Shown piece after piece: positions 217 to 55,315 of a stretch of 64,000 bases of DNA. A program made the translations under genes and the position numbers. The notes below the pieces were generated by a model, which saw nothing but the letters and a program-made list of their open reading frames with translations, was not told the DNA's origin and searched no databases. Within the stretch, counting starts at the first letter, position 1, and every line of letters starts with the position of its first letter. The DNA is taken from the NCBI GenBank assembly GCA_017433855.1, contig JAFRGM010000011.1:1-64000 (forward strand), given 5' to 3'. This DNA is from Candidatus Saccharimonadota bacterium. GTDB lineage: Bacteria; Patescibacteriota; Saccharimonadia; Saccharimonadales; Saccharimonadaceae.

Positions 217-1329
217 TTACTCTTCTGATGCGTCTAAATCATCTAAGGCATTGAGAAGTGAGTCTTCGACGTTCTTTTTCTTCTTTTTGGCGGGAGCCTT
301 GACTAGCTCAATATCTATATCATAACCGGTGAGCTTTGAGGCCAAGCGAACGTTTTGGCCTTGTTTGCCGATTGCAATTGATTGTTGCTCTTCGGTGACG
401 TAGACTTTAGCTTTTTTGCCTTCGATTTCGACTTTGTTGATTTCGGCTGGAGAGAGAGCTTCGCGGATGTATTCGGAGGCATTATCACTCCAAGTGATGA
501 TGTCGATTTTTTCGCGGTCACCAATCTCGTTCATAACGGCTTGGACACGCATACCGCGACCACCAACAAAGGTACCAACTGGATCAATGCCAGGAGTGGA
601 ACTGGTGACGGCGATTTTAGTGCGACGACCAGCTTCACGAGCGATACCTTTAATTTCTACGGTGCCGCTATCAAGCTCTGGAACTTCATGACGGAAGAGG
701 TACTCAACAAACTCGGCTCAACCTCGAGAAAGGATGAGCTGTGCACCTCTGTCGGTACGTTCGATTTTTTTAATGTAGACTTTGATGCGGCTGCCCACAG
801 TGTAGTATTCACCATCAATTTGTTCAGAGCGTGGCATAATGCCATTGGCGCGACCAAGGTCAACACGAACAATACGGGACTCAACCCTAGCAACCATACC
901 AGTGACGACGGTGCCGATTTTGTCTTCATATTCCGTAATAACGGCATCGTTTTCGGCGTCACGTAAGCGCTGAATCACTACTTGCTTGGCGGTGCCAGCG
1001 GCAACGCGGCCAAAAGTGGTGACTTTGTATTTGGTTTCGACTATGTCGCCGAGTTTTGCACCTTCACCAGCTTCGGCTAGTGGAATCTCGGTGGACGGAT
1101 TATAGGCCAAACCATCTTCGATGGCTTCGCGAGCGACGTAGACTTCAGCTTCACCGGTATTGGTATTGAGGGTGGCGCGGACATTCATGTCACGGTCGCC
1201 GTTTTCTTTGCGCCAAGCAGCAGCAATGGCTTGCTCGATGACGCTAAGGACGGTTTCGCGAGGAAGGCCTTTTTCTTCAGCAATAATGTCTACCATAGCG
1301 GACATTTGCTTCAAATCTAGGTTTTCCAT
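217..1329 (-). CDS. nusA: Transcription factor NusA, interrupted by an in-frame TGA
   Basis: NusA binds RNA polymerase and modulates pausing, termination and antitermination. The N-terminal domain begins MENLDLKQMSAMVDIIAEEK, followed by an S1 domain ending RTDRGAQLILSRG. A TGA at 718-720 follows, and the same frame then continues AEFVEYLFRHEVPELDSGTV, the expected start of KH1, through VGGRGMRVQAVMNEIGDREK and KH2 (GKQGQNVRLASKLTGYDI) to the stop at 217. The full frame is 371 codons and the TGA is codon 204. In homologs this place reads SR-x-x-PEF, so the TGA replaces one amino-acid codon and is not a frameshift. Truncation there would remove both KH domains. The start has GAAAGGAAACATG upstream. 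Function is certain; whether this copy is read through, is a pseudogene or carries a sequence error is open. Confidence 0.9.
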
Positions 1330-3965: not shown

Positions 3966-4772
3966 ATGCGATCTTACGATGTGGTGATTGTGGGGGCAGG
4001 AATTGCTGGCATGACGGCAGCGATATATGTGGCGCGAGCCGGCAAAAGCGTGATTCTTTTGGAAGAAAGAATGCATGGCGGGCAAATTATAAATACCATA
4101 AATATCGCGAATTGGCCAGCTGAGCCGGGGATTTCTGGCGCAGAATTGTCGCAAAAAATATATCATCAGGTGAATAATCTTGGAGTGGAAGTGGAATATG
4201 TAAAAGTGCTTTCAGTTGAGGAGAGTGATGAATATTTGACTGAGCAGGATGCCAAAAATGCAGCAAGGCGGCTATTTGTGGTTAAGACTGAGGATGGCGA
4301 TTATACCGCTAAGGCGGTAATTGTTGCGACTGGCACAGAGCCACGCAAATTGAGCGAAAGTCAAATGAAGGATGCTGGTAAGAGGACGGTTTCGTATTGT
4401 GCTACTTGTGACGGAGCGTTTTTCAAGGGCAAACCAGTTGTAGTGGTGGGGAGTGGTAACACTGCTCGGCATGAGATTGCTTATTTGAATAATATTGCTT
4501 CTAAGGTGTACCACATACATCATGATGATCCAATTCCAGAGGATGCCGTGGCGGTGTTTGTGGCGATAGGACGGGTGCCAAATACGGATGCAGTAAAAAA
4601 TATAGTAGATTTAGATGAGTCTGGCTATATTGTGGCGGGTGAAAATTGCAAAACTTCGGTGCCAGGTATCTTTGTGGCTGGCGATTGTCGTGTAAAAGAT
4701 GTGAGGCAATTGGTGACCGCGGCTGGGGATGGTGCCGTGGCGGCGGCTGGTGTGCTAGCGTATTTGGCATAA
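3966..4772 (+). CDS. trxB: Thioredoxin reductase-like flavoprotein with a shortened pyridine-nucleotide domain
   Basis: FAD-dependent enzyme that would reduce the adjacent thioredoxin. The FAD motif GAGIAGMTAA, the NWPAEPG region, the redox site CATCDGAFF and the C-terminal FAD motif GIFVAGDCR are all present. Length is 268 residues against about 310-320 for the family. The loss is internal: after GSGNTARHEIAYLNN and SKVYHIHHDD the chain jumps straight to AVAVFVAIGRVPNTDAV. About 50 residues that normally follow the NADPH-binding HRR-x-x-FRA motif are absent, and that motif itself is HHDD. NADPH binding is therefore doubtful; another electron donor or a non-catalytic role is possible. The frame is clean. 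Confidence 0.85.
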   Translation: MRSYDVVIVGAGIAGMTAAIYVARAGKSVILLEERMHGGQIINTINIANWPAEPGISGAELSQKIYHQVNNLGVEVEYVKVLSVEESDEYLTEQDAKNAARRLFVVKTEDGDYTAKAVIVATGTEPRKLSESQMKDAGKRTVSYCATCDGAFFKGKPVVVVGSGNTARHEIAYLNNIASKVYHIHHDDPIPEDAVAVFVAIGRVPNTDAVKNIVDLDESGYIVAGENCKTSVPGIFVAGDCRVKDVRQLVTAAGDGAVAAAGVLAYLA

Positions 4773-5701: not shown

Positions 5702-6418
5702 ATGGAGACGGATGCAAAAGAGCGAGGCGTAGGGCGGTTAGCGCGGGTAATTGGTCTGGTGTTGCTATCGGTGGCGTTTTTAGCGATTATTTTTGTCAGT
5801 ATGAACACAAAAGTTCCAAATTCTGAAAAAGTGTGGTATCCAGAAATGACGACGGGTAATATGGATGCCAAAAATTATTTTGTAATCTATTCTGATATTG
5901 CTTGTCCATATTGCATTGCGTTTGAAAATGCAATCATAGAAAATAAGGAAGAATTCGAAACATACATTGAAGAAAATGATGTTTTGGTGGAAATTAGAGT
6001 GGCGGATTTTTTGTATGAATTTGGCGAATCTAACCCGATCGAATCACGGTATGGAGCGGAGGCGATTTATTGCGCAAAAGATGCTGGCAAGTTTTGGGAT
6101 TATTATGAACTAGCAGTGACAAAAGTTTGGAATGAGTACTTTAAGAATGCAGGAAAGTCGGCATTTAGTGAATTTAATAAGCTGGGTAAGGATTACTGGA
6201 TAGAAATTGGTGAAGAGGTTGGGCTAGACGAAGATTTTGCGCGCTGCGTTAATGACGACAGGGTGCTGGATGTCGTAATGGGGGACGCTAAGAAGATGAC
6301 ACGAATGGTAACTGGTATGCCGTATTTTAAGTTTAATAATTATGTGCTATCTGGATTTGATTTGTCTTGGGGCTGGGATAGGGTGGTAACATATTTTGAT
6401 GCGGGGCTTAAGAGCTAA
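5702..6418 (+). CDS. Membrane-anchored DsbA-like thiol:disulfide oxidoreductase
   Basis: 238 residues. An N-terminal membrane anchor at about residues 14-34 (VIGLVLLSVAFLAIIFVSM) is followed by a thioredoxin fold with the active site DIACPYCIAF near residue 72. The helical insertion and the cis-proline segment (VTGMPYFKFNNY) are typical of the DsbA/DsbG thioredoxin_4 group. It should act outside the membrane in disulfide formation or isomerisation of exported proteins. The start has AAAAAGGAGTAGA upstream and lies one base after the CPTCG membrane protein, so the two are co-expressed and probably exchange electrons. Confidence 0.88.
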   Translation: METDAKERGVGRLARVIGLVLLSVAFLAIIFVSMNTKVPNSEKVWYPEMTTGNMDAKNYFVIYSDIACPYCIAFENAIIENKEEFETYIEENDVLVEIRVADFLYEFGESNPIESRYGAEAIYCAKDAGKFWDYYELAVTKVWNEYFKNAGKSAFSEFNKLGKDYWIEIGEEVGLDEDFARCVNDDRVLDVVMGDAKKMTRMVTGMPYFKFNNYVLSGFDLSWGWDRVVTYFDAGLKS

Positions 6419-6969
6419 TGCGCGATCACCTATTGTCGCAACATTTCCTAAGGTCACCAAAGTTGGCTCTGATTTTGATCGGACATTCTAATCTGAAAAA
6501 ACGGGACTTGGTGGTGGAAATTGGCGCGGGAAGTGGCGTGATTACTTCGGCCTTGGCGCATCGGGTGCGCCAAGTGATTGCAGTTGAACCGGATGCGAAG
6601 ACAGCGGCAAAGTTGCGCGAGAATCTAAAAAAGCGCGAGATTTCAAACGTAACGATTGTAGAGCAAGATTTTATGGAGATGAATCTGCCAGACGAGCCTT
6701 ATAAAGTATTTGCGAACCCACCGTTTCATTTGAGTTCGGCGATTATTCATAAATTGATTGAAGACAAGAACCCGCCAGCAGCATTTTATTTGATTTTGCA
6801 GAAACAATTTGCTCTGAAATTGTTGAATACTGACAGACACTACACCTCACAATTAGGGATGAAGCTCATTCAAAGTTATGCGACTAGGATTAGATTGCCA
6901 CTTAAGCCAACCGATTTTACACCGCCGCCAGCTGTGCCAACAGTACTTTTTGAAGCGAAACATTTATAG
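6418..6969 (+). CDS. Erm/KsgA-type rRNA adenine N6-methyltransferase, short form
   Basis: SAM-dependent rRNA methylase. Motif X is SQHFLRSPKLA, motif I is VVEIGAGSGVIT, then AVEPDAKTAAKL. The catalytic motif IV reads ANPPFHLSSAIIHKLIE, where Erm and KsgA have N-I-P-[FY]. The context (EPYKVFANPPFHL) looks more like Erm (23S A2058 dimethylase) than KsgA, and a normal rsmA is present at 8358. At 183 residues it lacks most of the C-terminal helical domain and ends shortly after FTPPPAVPTVLFEAKHL. Its ATG overlaps the TAA of the DsbA-like gene. Macrolide resistance is possible but not shown. Confidence 0.82.
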   Translation: MRDHLLSQHFLRSPKLALILIGHSNLKKRDLVVEIGAGSGVITSALAHRVRQVIAVEPDAKTAAKLRENLKKREISNVTIVEQDFMEMNLPDEPYKVFANPPFHLSSAIIHKLIEDKNPPAAFYLILQKQFALKLLNTDRHYTSQLGMKLIQSYATRIRLPLKPTDFTPPPAVPTVLFEAKHL

Positions 6970-7260: not shown

Positions 7261-8355
7261 ATGAGGCTTTCAAGAAAGATTGATAAGGCCCTAGCTTGTA
7301 TAACGATATTTATTTTGTCGTTTGTTTTTGCTTTTGCAGCGAATTATAATAATAACGATACCTTTGCTGATAACGAAAGTGGTATTTTTATTGAGGCGGC
7401 TGAGTATTTTGTGACTTTTTACGATGAAGGTAAGAAGTTGACGGTCAAAACTGATGCAGCCACTGTGGGTGAGGCATTAAAGCGGGCCGGCTACAGTTTG
7501 AACTCGGCGGATATTGTGGAGCCTGGCCTGGATACAAAAATCAACACGAATAATTTCTTTATTAATATTTATCGGGCGCGGCCAGCCATTGTGAAAGATG
7601 GTTTAGTAGAAAAATATATCATGAGCGCAAGTCGTGATCCTAGGCAAATAGTGCGCGACGCTGGCATAGAGATATACGACGGTGATGAAATTAATGCCGT
7701 ACAGACGGAGAGTTTTTTGGAAGCAGGCATCGCGAACGCGTATGAAGTTGTGCGGAACGGCGGTCGGACAATAACCGAGCAAGAGGAAATCGCATTTTCT
7801 GAGGTGGAAGTAAAGGATTATAATTTGGCGCCAGGGCTGCGTGAAGTAAGGCAGCTGGGCGAGATGGGGGCAAAAGAGTTAGTGTACGAAGTTTTTTATG
7901 ATGAGGGTGTAGAGGTAAAGCGCGAGCTTGTGTCAGAGAGCATAGTGCGTGAGCCGGTCACTAGAATAGTGGCGGTGGGGGTGAGTGAGATAGAGCGGAC
8001 TCCGTTGACGGCTTCTAGAGGGGTAAACATTTATACAGTGCATAAGGGCGAAACGATAATTGAACGTAAAGAAACTTATTATGATTTAAATATGAAGGGG
8101 GTGATGCTGATTGCCGCGCGTGAGTGTGGGGCGGAGGCATATTACACAGTGAGAGAAGACGGCGTGAAAGTGGATGCTGAGGGTTCTGTGTTGGTGGCGG
8201 CAGATTTAGAGAGATATCCGTGGTGCTCGGTGGTGGAGACTTCTCTAGGGCTAGGTAAAGTTTATGATACGGGGTCGTTTGTAAATAAGCCAGATGGTAC
8301 TGGGCATGAACAGTTTGATATTGCGACGGATTGGACGATAAGAGACGGAGTGTAA
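7261..8355 (+). CDS. Secreted/anchored protein with DUF348 repeats and a G5 domain
   Basis: 364 residues. An N-terminal hydrophobic segment (TIFILSFVFAFAANY) serves as signal or anchor. Two DUF348-type units follow: YDEGKKLTVKTDAATVGEAL with RAGYSLNSADIVEPG, and a second around VRNGGRTITEQEEIAF. A G5-like beta domain follows (YEVFYDEGVEVKRELVSESI with REPVTRIVAVG). This layout matches Rpf/YabE-type cell-wall proteins, which often sit beside rsmA as here. The C-terminal part after SASRGVNIYTVHKGE lacks a recognisable lytic domain. It ends three bases before rsmA. Confidence 0.8.
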   Translation: MRLSRKIDKALACITIFILSFVFAFAANYNNNDTFADNESGIFIEAAEYFVTFYDEGKKLTVKTDAATVGEALKRAGYSLNSADIVEPGLDTKINTNNFFINIYRARPAIVKDGLVEKYIMSASRDPRQIVRDAGIEIYDGDEINAVQTESFLEAGIANAYEVVRNGGRTITEQEEIAFSEVEVKDYNLAPGLREVRQLGEMGAKELVYEVFYDEGVEVKRELVSESIVREPVTRIVAVGVSEIERTPLTASRGVNIYTVHKGETIIERKETYYDLNMKGVMLIAARECGAEAYYTVREDGVKVDAEGSVLVAADLERYPWCSVVETSLGLGKVYDTGSFVNKPDGTGHEQFDIATDWTIRDGV

Positions 8356-8357
8356 TT

Positions 8358-9119
8358 ATGGCTTTGCAGAACAAGAAAAGTTTGGGGCAACATTGGCTAA
8401 AAAACAGAGAGATTTTAGACGAAATTGCGAGATTAACGAAGACTACAGCGGGTGAGGCAACATCGTTTTGCTTGGAAATTGGGCCTGGGCTGGGGACGCT
8501 TACTGCAGCACTGTTCCGGCAATTTGACGAGGTGATGGCGGTGGAGTTTGATGAGAAACTGGCTAATAACCTGCCAGGGTCGTTTCCGGGCAAAAATCTT
8601 AAGGTAGTAAATGCCGATATTTTGAAGTTTGATTTTGATGTTTTGCCGCAGTCGTATGCAATTGCGGGAAACATACCGTATTACATTACGGGGCCGATTA
8701 TAGAACGAGTATTGACGGTTCAAAATCTTCCTAAGAGTATCGTGCTTCTGATTCAGAAAGAAGTGGCGGAGCGAATTGTGAGTGATAAGGAAACTGTTTT
8801 GTCTTTGAAGTGTAAAAACTTGGCAGATGTGAGGCTGGGGCCAGTGGTAAAAGCGGCGGAGTTTACGCCACCACCAAAAGTAGATAGCCAAATAATAGTG
8901 ATGGTGCCGCATGCGCCGGTGGTGGAGTCTGAGGTGATGGAACTGATAAAACGTGGGTTTAAGGCGCCGAGGAAAAAGTTGATACACAATCTGGCCGGGA
9001 TGGCATCAAAGGAAAAGATAAGTGAGATTCTGCAAGAGTGCGGACTGAGTGATAGTGCGCGTCCGGGGGATTTGCATCTTGAGGATTGGCAGGCGATTTA
9101 TCAAAAAATTAGTAATTAG
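8358..9119 (+). CDS. rsmA: 16S rRNA (adenine1518/1519-N6)-dimethyltransferase RsmA
   Basis: Dimethylates two adjacent adenines in helix 45 of 16S rRNA during 30S maturation. Motifs are KSLGQHWLKNREILDEIA (X), CLEIGPGLGTLTAAL (I), AVEFDEKLANNL (II) and the catalytic AGNIPYYITGPIIERVL (IV). FTPPPKVDSQI follows, with the complete C-terminal helical domain (RGFKAPRKKLIHNL). 253 residues, normal for KsgA. The start at 8358 has CGGAG eight bases upstream. Co-transcribed with the G5 gene. Confidence 0.95.
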   Translation: MALQNKKSLGQHWLKNREILDEIARLTKTTAGEATSFCLEIGPGLGTLTAALFRQFDEVMAVEFDEKLANNLPGSFPGKNLKVVNADILKFDFDVLPQSYAIAGNIPYYITGPIIERVLTVQNLPKSIVLLIQKEVAERIVSDKETVLSLKCKNLADVRLGPVVKAAEFTPPPKVDSQIIVMVPHAPVVESEVMELIKRGFKAPRKKLIHNLAGMASKEKISEILQECGLSDSARPGDLHLEDWQAIYQKISN

Positions 9120-9137: not shown

Positions 9138-10382
9138 ATGTTAGACGTGAAGTTTATTAGGGAAAATTTAGAGTTAGTTGAGAAGTCCACCAAAGAGAAG
9201 GGCTACAAAATAGATGTGCGCGAAATACTGAAGTTGGATGATGAGCGTAAGGCGATATTGGCTGAAGTAGAGGCACTGCGGTCTCGACGTAATGAGATTG
9301 CGGCCAAGATGAAGGGTGGAAAACCAGAGACGGCGCTGATTGCTGAGGGTAAGCAAATTAAAACTACCCTTGCTGAAAAAGAGGCAGAACTTGACAAAAT
9401 AGAAGAAGCGTGCTATAATGGGCTTAAGAGGGTCCCAAATGTAATATTTGAGGACGTGCCACTTGGGGGTGAGGAATGTTCGGTAGAGGTAAAAAAGTGG
9501 GGAGAAAATCATACTACTGGAGTAGACCACTTAGATTATGCAGTGAGCCGAAATTGGGTTGATTTTGAACGCGGGGCAAAAGTGGCCGGTGCGAAGTTTT
9601 ACTACCTAAAAGATGGGTTGGCTTTGCTTGAGAATGCGCTTTTGCAATATGGATTAAGTAAGGTTTTGGAGCATGGTTTTACGTTTATGACGGTGCCAGA
9701 TATGGTGTCGTCGCGCGTGCTAGAGGGGTGTGTGTTTAATCCACGCACAAGTGACCAGTCTGATGAATATTACATTGAAGGTGAAGATTTAGCAATGATT
9801 GCGACGGCCGAGATGCCATTAACTGGCTATCACATGGATGAAATTATCGACGAAGATAAGTTGCCGTTAATGTATGCAGGATATTCGGCTTGTTTTAGAA
9901 AAGAGGCGGGGACTTATGGTAAATACACTAGAGGCTTATTTAGAGTGCATCAATTTAATAAGCTAGAAATGTATGTTTTTTGCTTGCCAGAGCAAAGTAA
10001 AGAGATGCACGACAAGATTTTGGCGATAGAAGAAGACATTTGGTAAGGGCTGGGGGTGCCTTATCATGTCATTAATATTGCGGCGGGCGATCTTGGTGCG
10101 CCAGCTGCAAAAAAATATGATATGGAATATTGGTCGCCGGTCAATCAGAAATACCAAGAGATTACTTCGTGTTCGAATTGTACGGATTTTCAGGCGCGTG
10201 CGGTAAACGTGCGAGTGCGTCGTAAAGATGGAACAGTGGAGTATGTTCATACTCTGAACGGTACGGCGATACCTTTGGCGCGCGCTTTGGTAGTGATTTT
10301 GGAAAACTATGCTACGGAAGGTGGCAAGTTGAAAGTACCGGAAGTTTTACGGCCATATTTGGGCGGTAGAGAGGAATTATAA
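9138..10382 (+). CDS. serS: Seryl-tRNA synthetase, interrupted by an in-frame TAA
   Basis: Class II synthetase that charges tRNA-Ser. The N-terminal coiled-coil arm spans about residues 27-100. The catalytic domain has TAEMPLTGYHMDEI and motif 2 (ACFRKEAGTYGKYTRGLFRV). At 10044-10046, after KILAIEEDIW, the frame meets TAA. It then continues without shift as GLGVPYHVINIAAGDLGAPA, DMEYWSPVNQKYQEITSCSN and motif 3 (LNGTAIPLARALVVILEN) to the stop at 10380-10382. Homologs have a residue such as Gln in the stop position, one base away from TAA. The whole frame is 415 codons, normal for SerRS. Truncation would remove motif 3, which binds ATP, and inactivate the enzyme. Confidence 0.9.
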
Positions 10383-18816: not shown

Positions 18817-18825
18817 TGTTATAAT
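18817..18825 (+). promoter_or_regulatory. Leaderless promoter of prfB
   Basis: ATGTTATAAT with the hexamer at 18820-18825, seven bases before the chosen ATG at 18833. Confidence 0.6.
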
Positions 18826-18832
18826 GGTATTT

Positions 18833-19903
18833 ATGCAAGATTTGGAAAAGCGACTGAAGATTCTTGAAAGCGAATATCGGCAAATATACGAAAAATTGAA
18901 AATTGACGAGAAGGTGGCTGAGGCGGCAGAGCTAGAAAAGCAAGTGGCGGAGCCAGAGATTTGGCGCGACATAAAAGTTGCTACCGAGAAAAATCAGGCA
19001 TTAGCAAAATTGAATGCTGAGGTGGAGCCATGGACATTGCTTGGCGCACAGATTAATGATTTGCGGGAGCTGATGGAGCTTGGTGGGCTAGACTTAAAAG
19101 ATGAGATTAATGGGCAGATGTCGGCAATGGAAGCGGAAATGCAGAAATTGAAAAAGGCGTTACGCTTTAATGGGGTTTACGATGCAAGCGATGCCATCAT
19201 GAGAATAACTTCTGGTGCTGGTGGTACAGAGGCAATGGATTGGGCGGGGATGCTCGAGCGTATGTATCTGCGGTTTTTTGAGAAGCATGGGTTTAAGGCT
19301 ACAGAGATAGAGCGGACGCAGGGTGAAGAAGCAGGTATTAAGACGGCGGTTTACGAAGTGACCGGGCCAAATGCTTACGGAACTCTAAAAAGTGAGCATG
19401 GGGTGCACAGGCTGGTGCGACTTTCGCCGTTTAACGCTAATAATTTACGCCAGACTTCTTTTGCGCTCGTAGAGGTTTTACCGGTGATCAAGGTGGATAC
19501 TGATATAGTAATAGACGAAAAAGACCTTAGGGTTGACGTATATCACTCTGGCGGGCACGGTGGGCAAAGTGTTAACACTACCAATTCGGCGGTGCGAATT
19601 ACACATTTACCAACAAACACAGTAGTGGCGATTCAAAATGAGCGTTCGCAACTGCAAAATAAGGAGAAGGCGATGGAGATTTTGCGGGGCAAGTTGGCGC
19701 AAATGCAGATGGAGCAACATGCCGAAAAATTGTCTGATTTGAGGGCTGGCGAGTCGGCGGGTTGGGGGCAGCAGATTAGAAATTATGTAATGCAGCCGTA
19801 CAGATTAGTGAAAGACACCCGAACTGGCTTTGAAACAACAGACACGGAGGCTGTTTTGGACGGCGAAATCGACGAATTCATTGACAAATTTCTTGAAATG
19901 TGA
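18833..19903 (+). CDS. prfB: Peptide chain release factor 2
   Basis: Class I release factor for UAA and UGA. The recognition tripeptide SPF is in VRLSPFNANNLRQTSF, and the catalytic GGQ is in HSGGHGGQSVNTTNSAVRI. 356 residues with a coiled-coil N-terminus. Unlike many prfB genes it has no programmed +1 frameshift: the frame is open from the ATG. An overlapping ATG at 18824 sits inside the -10 and is unlikely to be used. The gene itself ends in TGA, which supports UGA as a stop in this genome. Confidence 0.95.
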   Translation: MQDLEKRLKILESEYRQIYEKLKIDEKVAEAAELEKQVAEPEIWRDIKVATEKNQALAKLNAEVEPWTLLGAQINDLRELMELGGLDLKDEINGQMSAMEAEMQKLKKALRFNGVYDASDAIMRITSGAGGTEAMDWAGMLERMYLRFFEKHGFKATEIERTQGEEAGIKTAVYEVTGPNAYGTLKSEHGVHRLVRLSPFNANNLRQTSFALVEVLPVIKVDTDIVIDEKDLRVDVYHSGGHGGQSVNTTNSAVRITHLPTNTVVAIQNERSQLQNKEKAMEILRGKLAQMQMEQHAEKLSDLRAGESAGWGQQIRNYVMQPYRLVKDTRTGFETTDTEAVLDGEIDEFIDKFLEM

Positions 19904-53005: not shown

Positions 53006-55315
53006 TTAAACTACGAAATTTAAGAGGTGGGATTTCTTGACACAGATGGATTTGTTGACGCCAGAAGCGGTATATTTGGCGACTTTTTCGTCTGCTAGGG
53101 CGAGAGTTTTAATCTTGTCCTCGTCTTCTAAATCTGAGGTATTGACGACCAATTTGGCGCGAAGTTTGCCGTTGATTTGGACGATAATTTCGACGGTATC
53201 AGATACGAGATATTGATTATCCCAAACTGGCCAAATGTCATCGGCGCCTAGGTTTTCGAGCATCTCTGAGGCGAGGTGCGGAGCAAAAGGCTTGAGGAGT
53301 TTGGCGAGGATGATTAGGTCCTCGGTACTAGCGCCGTTTTTGTATTGATCATTGACTTATTCCATAAGATTGGCTACAGCAGTATTGAAGTTGGCCTTGT
53401 AAATATCTTCTGTGACTTTTTTGATGACTTTATTCCTGACATAGCGGAGGTCCTGCTGGCTGTTCTCCTCCCCCACTCGGCTCTCGTGGGGGACCCCCTC
53501 CACAGCCGTCACCCCCGCGGTATTGAATACTAAGTTATAACAACGGTTTAAGAAGCGATAAACACCGCCTACGGAGCGAGGGTCCCAAGCAGCATCAAGC
53601 TCAACTGGGCCGATGAACATTTCGTAGGTACGGAGAGTGTCAGCGCCGTAACCGTCGTTGATAACATCGAGTGGATCAATGACGTTACCTTTGGACTTAC
53701 TCATTTTTTTGCCATCTGGGGCATTGATGTAGCCGTGGTAGATGAGCTTTTTGATGGGCTCACGGAATGGTAAGTAGCCTTGATCGGCAAAGAATTTGCA
53801 CCAGAAACGCACGTATAAGAGGTGAGCTACGGCATGGTCGGCACCAACGTAGATATCTACTGGCTCCCAATACTTGATGGCTTCTGGATCCCAGGCGTGC
53901 TTAGTATCGTGCGGTGATGCGTAGCGCCAAAGATACCAAGATGAGCAAGCGTAGCCGTCTAAGGTGTCGGTTTCGCGGGTCATGGTTTCGACTTGACCAG
54001 TTTCTTCGTTGAATAAATCAACCTTGAGCCAATCCGTGGCTTTGGCAAGAGCAGAGCGGCCGGTGTGGTCTGGCTTGTAATCTGCTACCTCTGGGATTAT
54101 GACTGGTAGTTGGTCTTCTGGGATTAGATGCGGGTGGCCTTTTGAGTCGTAAGCGATAGGGATAGGACAACCCCAATAACGTTGGCGAGAGATGAGCCAA
54201 TCGCGCATTTTGTAAGTGGTCTTGGGGGTACCGTAAGCATCCCAGGCGACTAATTCGGTTTCGACGATTGGTAAATCGTGAGCTTCAGCAAAGGCACGGT
54301 CGCGTTCATCCATGGCTGGCACCGCCATAATAGCACCGGTACCATAACCGGCCAAGACGTAATCGGCAACGTAAACTGGGATTTTGGCGTTTGTGGCGGG
54401 GTTGGTAACGTAAGAGCCAGTGAAAACGCCGGTCTTTTCCTTGTTTTCTTGACGTTCGATTTCAGATTTTTTGAGTGAAGCGGCTTTATAAGCAAGGGCG
54501 GTTTCGCGGGTGTCATCTGTTAATAAGGATTCTAACTGCGGATATTCTGGCGCAACTACTACAAAAGTGGCACCTTTGATGGTATCTGGGCGAGTGGTAA
54601 AGACTTTGATGTTGTCAAAATCTATTTCGGCGCCGGTACTTTTGCCGATCCAATTTTTTTGCATGGTTTTGATTTTATCGGGCCAGTCGAGAGCGTCGAT
54701 TTCAGATAGAAGCTCATCGGCGTAGGCAGTAATCTTAAAGAACCACTGCTTCATCTTCTTTTTTTCGACATCGTGACCACAGCGCCAACAGTGGCCGTTT
54801 TCGACTTGCTCGTTGGCGAGGACGGTCTGGTCTTCTGGACACCACCACTGGTAAGACTCTTTTTGGTAAGCAAGACCCTTTTTGTAAAGCTCACTAAAAC
54901 ACCACTGAGTCCAACGGTAATACTCGGGGTCCGAGGTGTTGATTTCTCTGGACCAATCGATATAATAGCCGAGGCGCTTGGCCTGTTTCCTGAAATTGTC
55001 GATGTTGGTTTTGGTGGCGTCTTTAGGTGAAATGCCGGTTTTAATGGCATAATTTTCGGCTGGTAGACCAAAAGTATCGTAGCCAAAAGGGCGCAAGACG
55101 TTTTGCTGTTGCTGCGCATAGAAACGAGTGAGCACATCTACGATAGTAAAGTTGCGAACGTGCCCAACATGAAGCCCAGCGCCAGATGGGTAAGGAAACA
55201 TTTCGGCGAGCATTTTTTTGGGCTGGCCGGTAGTTTCGTGTGCAGTGAAAGGTTGGGTTTCTTCCCAGATTTTTTGCCATTTGGCTTCAATTTTGAGTGG
55301 TTCGTATCTGTCCAT
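53006..55315 (-). CDS. leuS: Leucyl-tRNA synthetase, interrupted by an in-frame TAA
   Basis: Class I synthetase. HIGH in YPSGAGLHVGHVRNF, a zinc-like knuckle WWCPEDQTVLANEQ with HCWRCGHD, the CP1 editing domain (FTTRPDTIKGATF), RDWLISRQRYWGCPIP, and KMSKS in PDGKKMSKSKGNVIDPLDVI. After FNTAVANLME the frame meets TAA at 53359-53357, then continues unshifted as VNDQYKNGASTEDLI, LLKPFAPHLASEMLENLG and the C-terminal VEIIVQINGKLRAKLVVNT. Homologs have a residue such as Phe, Leu or Tyr there. The full frame is 770 codons. Truncation would cut the anticodon-binding domain. A GC-rich palindrome lies at 53458-53507 in frame. Confidence 0.9.
53458..53507. repeat. GC-rich palindrome inside leuS
   Basis: GGCTGT (53458-53463) pairs with ACAGCC (53502-53507), and CCCCCAC (53470-53476) with GTGGGGG (53486-53492). 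The segment encodes an in-frame stretch around AGVTAVEGVPHESRVGEENS, is much richer in GC than the rest of leuS, and falls where homologs vary in length. It looks like a small inserted repeat. Confidence 0.55.

Follow-up and report, generated by a model that had tools for sequence, protein, structure and literature searches.

A TAA within serS of a draft Saccharibacteria genome is probably one of many single-base consensus errors

How can the gene for an essential enzyme, seryl-tRNA synthetase, carry a stop codon in the middle of an otherwise well-formed reading frame? This question is raised by serS in the 64,000-nucleotide stretch analyzed here (contig JAFRGM010000011.1 of assembly GCA_017433855.1, positions 1 to 64,000; termed the window). 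Read in a single frame, serS contains one internal TAA and ends at a proper terminal TAA (10380-10382). The letters around the internal stop are ACATTTGGTAAGGGCTGGGGG. A previous sequence-only reading had placed this TAA ahead of motif 3, and the placement was confirmed by translation. In a Pfam search, the first 302 amino acids matched Seryl_tRNA_N and profile positions 8-91 of tRNA-synt_2b, while the part after the TAA matched positions 94-179 of the latter profile. The domain order was as expected for SerRS, with the N-terminal domain followed by the class II core domain. The TAA falls inside this core domain, and its two halves are consecutive parts of one Pfam domain. In the assembly, serS has no open frame through motif 3, and the earlier proposal that the motif 3 part beyond the stop is lost was borne out. 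The gene resembles other bacterial SerRS genes in both domains and in the whole frame save one codon; it differs from them by its in-frame stop, which was seen in no other relative searched.

At codon 303, 54 of 55 related serS loci encode Gln (CAA/CAG) and one encodes Arg (CGG), as had been anticipated for homologues. Since relatives read CAA/CAG at the site, one C-to-T change of CAA suffices for the TAA, and the single-base route suggested before also stands. A serS match was present in 94 of the 99 genomes of the genus. No stop within serS was found in the 93 other matching genomes, nor among the matches listed for about 140 further genomes of the family. The search for a second serS that had been called for returned a single locus in the draft genome, which is 85.8% complete. 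In two genomes of the genus (G002 and G086), the serS match was only about 41% identical, as compared to 70-90% in the rest, which suggests that serS was replaced by a distant serS there. Upstream of serS, a 183-amino-acid protein encoded on the forward strand (6418-6969) resembles rRNA adenine dimethyltransferases by eye. It sits two genes ahead of a ksgA-like gene (8331-9119), and two dimethyltransferase-like genes may therefore lie close together.

The draft genome comprises 596,208 bases in 11 contigs and is probably metagenome-derived, given how fragmented it is and what its relatives are. No record of the same species was found in a scan of public genomes, the best match being 89% identical; the closest records were Saccharibacteria, Candidatus Nanosyncoccus alces among them, and many came from ruminant gut metagenomes. 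The whole draft was compared with a 99%-complete congener (G076) by aligning the reading frames of each to the other. Many apparent stops of the first whole-genome scan proved to be antisense shadow frames or to precede the true starts (e.g., before rpoB and rpoC), and these were discarded. Gene names were read from the sequences, and serS alone was tested against Pfam. Among 387 genes with 134,525 aligned codons, internal stops were found in seven conserved genes of the draft, with one isolated stop in each of serS, nusA, leuS, pnp, cysS, ssb and the gene of a 360-amino-acid protein (Table 1).

Table 1. Interrupted genes of the draft genome and the release factor gene of the window. Positions are those of the window unless a contig is given.
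Feature	Location	Strand	Description	Basis
serS, seryl-tRNA synthetase	9138..10382	+	415 codons including internal and final stop	translation, Pfam
In-frame TAA, serS codon 303	10044..10046	+		
serS remainder 3' of the stop	10047..10382	+	second half of class II core domain, motif 3 side	tRNA-synt_2b positions 94-179
nusA	220..1329	-	in-frame TGA at 718-720	translation; frame conserved on both sides
leuS	53009..55315	-	in-frame TAA at 53357-53359	translation; conserved frame continues past stop
pnp, internal stop	contig C1, 34384			alignment to G076
cysS, internal stop	contig C2, 119967			alignment to G076
ssb, internal stop	contig C8, 34657			alignment to G076
360-aa protein, internal stop	contig C2, 16173			alignment to G076
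Release factor gene, prfB-like	18824..19903	+	intact, GGQ motif	RF2 assignment by eye, not family search

Three further genes were split as if by one-base frameshifts (C2 near 83,700, C2 near 71,390 and C1 near 73,950), so that similar lesions, either stops or apparent frameshifts, occur in about ten genes of the draft. In the reverse comparison, with G076 as the subject (384 genes), neither an internal stop in a confidently aligned gene nor a split gene was found; the hits in G076 were confined to the ends of genes or to stretches that matched poorly. Two candidate lesions were rejected: the supposed frameshift on contig C7 can be read as differing gene starts, and trxB (3966-4772), considered as shortened by a deletion, is equally short in G076. 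The sequence-only reading had taken the serS stop for an oddity of a single essential gene. This part of it did not hold, as nusA and leuS are likewise interrupted in the same window, and pnp, cysS, ssb and one more gene are interrupted elsewhere in the draft. With similar stops in six other genes, the finding therefore characterizes the assembly rather than SerRS.

Among the other genus matches listed, no stops were found in nusA, pnp or cysS. A leuS stop was seen in one fragment only (G011) and in none of the other full-length congeners, and an ssb stop was seen only in a distant paralogue (G059); none of the other full-length orthologues listed in the genus shares the stops of the draft. 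The rpoB gene is intact in the draft and carries one in-frame stop each in two other assemblies of the genus (G051 (L385) and G018), which suggests that these stops are base errors in those assemblies, too. The background amounted to about 3 stops in about 372,000 codons, an approximate total tallied manually over the matches listed. With seven stops found versus 1.1 expected from this approximate genus rate (P ~1e-4), the draft has unusually many, and other assemblies of the genus, too, have lone stops in core genes. As a separate observation, the leuS alignment broke into 2-3 pieces, all in one open frame, for about half of the genomes of the genus. This suggests that many congeners have a variable insertion, near residue 235 or 355, that is missing from the draft.

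For each gene, 30 congeners were used to judge which residues the stops replace. TAA occupies sites of Gln (serS), Tyr (leuS) and Lys (pnp), the TAG of ssb stands at a Lys site, and TGA stands at a Gly site in cysS and at a variable Ser/Cys/Asn site in nusA, where it probably replaces Ser or Cys. Together, the seven stops comprise 3 TAA, 2 TAG and 2 TGA and mostly require transversions. From uniform random base errors in the codons of this genome, fractions of 0.42 TAA, 0.42 TAG and 0.16 TGA are expected, with 14% transitions. The observed make-up fits this expectation and thus supports base errors. Since 3.9% of random coding substitutions are nonsense, the seven stops would correspond to about 180 substitution errors over the roughly 400 kb of coding sequence that was aligned, i.e., about 4 per 10,000 bases, with a wide error on this estimate.

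Private residues of the draft were counted in alignment columns in which no more than one of 30 genomes deviated. None of the other 33 genomes compared reached the rate of the draft, 29 private residues in 2,670 columns. G051 and G076, whose terminal branches are at least as long as that of the draft, had 22 and 17, respectively. The excess over these two is modest and on its own constitutes weak evidence, because longer branches raise the rate as well. Within 10 codons of the stops, five private residues were seen versus 0.92 expected (P ~0.002); windows of 5, 10 and 15 codons were tried, with P values of 0.013, 0.002 and 0.008, respectively. In leuS, two private residue changes lie three and four codons beyond the TAA. 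Such clustering would be expected if poor stretches hold several errors each.

The serS TAA is most probably a single-base consensus error in the draft, one of many (probability about 0.86). Besides scattered substitution errors, of the number estimated above for its coding sequence, the draft would contain some deletions of one base. The serS gene of the living cell would be ordinary and of full length, and we infer a sense codon at position 303, most likely for Gln, in the reads or the cell. Base-level consensus errors in draft and metagenome-assembled genomes likewise appear as isolated stops and one-base frameshifts over conserved genes, with all stop types and without a shared context, and the draft shows nothing that sets it apart from them. 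Lesions in unrelated genes of the assembly (seven stops and three apparent frameshifts), with none in the reverse control, are what scattered errors predict. This reading was preferred because each of its rivals could explain serS alone, but not the whole set of lesions.

That the stops are read as amino acids, by codon reassignment, a suppressor tRNA or leaky readthrough, is scarcely credible. The conserved frame does carry on past each stop, as such decoding would require, but TAA would have to specify Gln, Tyr and Lys alike, and there are TGA and TAG stops to account for as well; reassignment of one codon to one residue was rejected on these grounds. Two GGQ release factors are present in the draft, and all three stop codons end ordinary genes. 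Among the tRNAs found in this incomplete draft, none had a stop anticodon, so that neither a stop-codon tRNA nor the loss of a release factor was observed. Saccharibacteria lineages are treated as genetic code 11, while Gracilibacteria and Absconditabacteria use genetic code 25, in which TGA encodes Gly (PMC10746230). The draft resembles these Patescibacteria relatives in having in-frame stops in conserved genes, and the TGA of its cysS stands at a Gly site. Unlike in code 25, however, it also has TAA and TAG stops, the residues replaced vary, TGA still terminates, and few genes are affected.

A real nonsense mutation, with serS broken in this lineage or strain and either an intact copy in the unassembled part or a decaying population, is unlikely. 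The incompleteness of the draft leaves room for a second serS copy, but a single locus turned up for each of serS, nusA, cysS and ssb, and leuS and pnp each had one of full length. This reading would require that no fewer than six core genes are disrupted and that every one of them is rescued; outside the stops, their frames show good conservation. Even less plausible is a two-piece SerRS, in which ribosomes would halt at the TAA and restart at the GTG at 10056 to make the second part of the core as a separate chain. This GTG, 9 bases past the TAA, opens a frame of 108 amino acids; the cut, however, falls within a single domain, a two-piece serS was found in no relative searched, and the other interrupted genes would be left unexplained. 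Cytosine deamination of old or degraded DNA could have written the serS stop, since this lesion itself is reachable by C-to-T, yet it too is very improbable as its source. The other lesions with an inferable parent codon are transversions (AAA to TAA, AAG to TAG, TAT/TAC to TAA and GGA to TGA), and the one-base deletions also speak against it. As a general cause, deamination was rejected, because the lesions are mainly transversions and one-base deletions rather than C-to-T or G-to-A changes.

If the stops were real, several core translation and RNA genes of this one species would depend for their expression on readthrough of TAA, TAG and TGA alike. It would be very surprising for a cell to translate through all three in its core genes, and we consider this highly improbable. 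Caution is due, as a lone stop in an essential gene can pass for recoding or a split gene while the remainder of the assembly goes unchecked. Gene losses inferred from this draft genome are not to be trusted without the reads.
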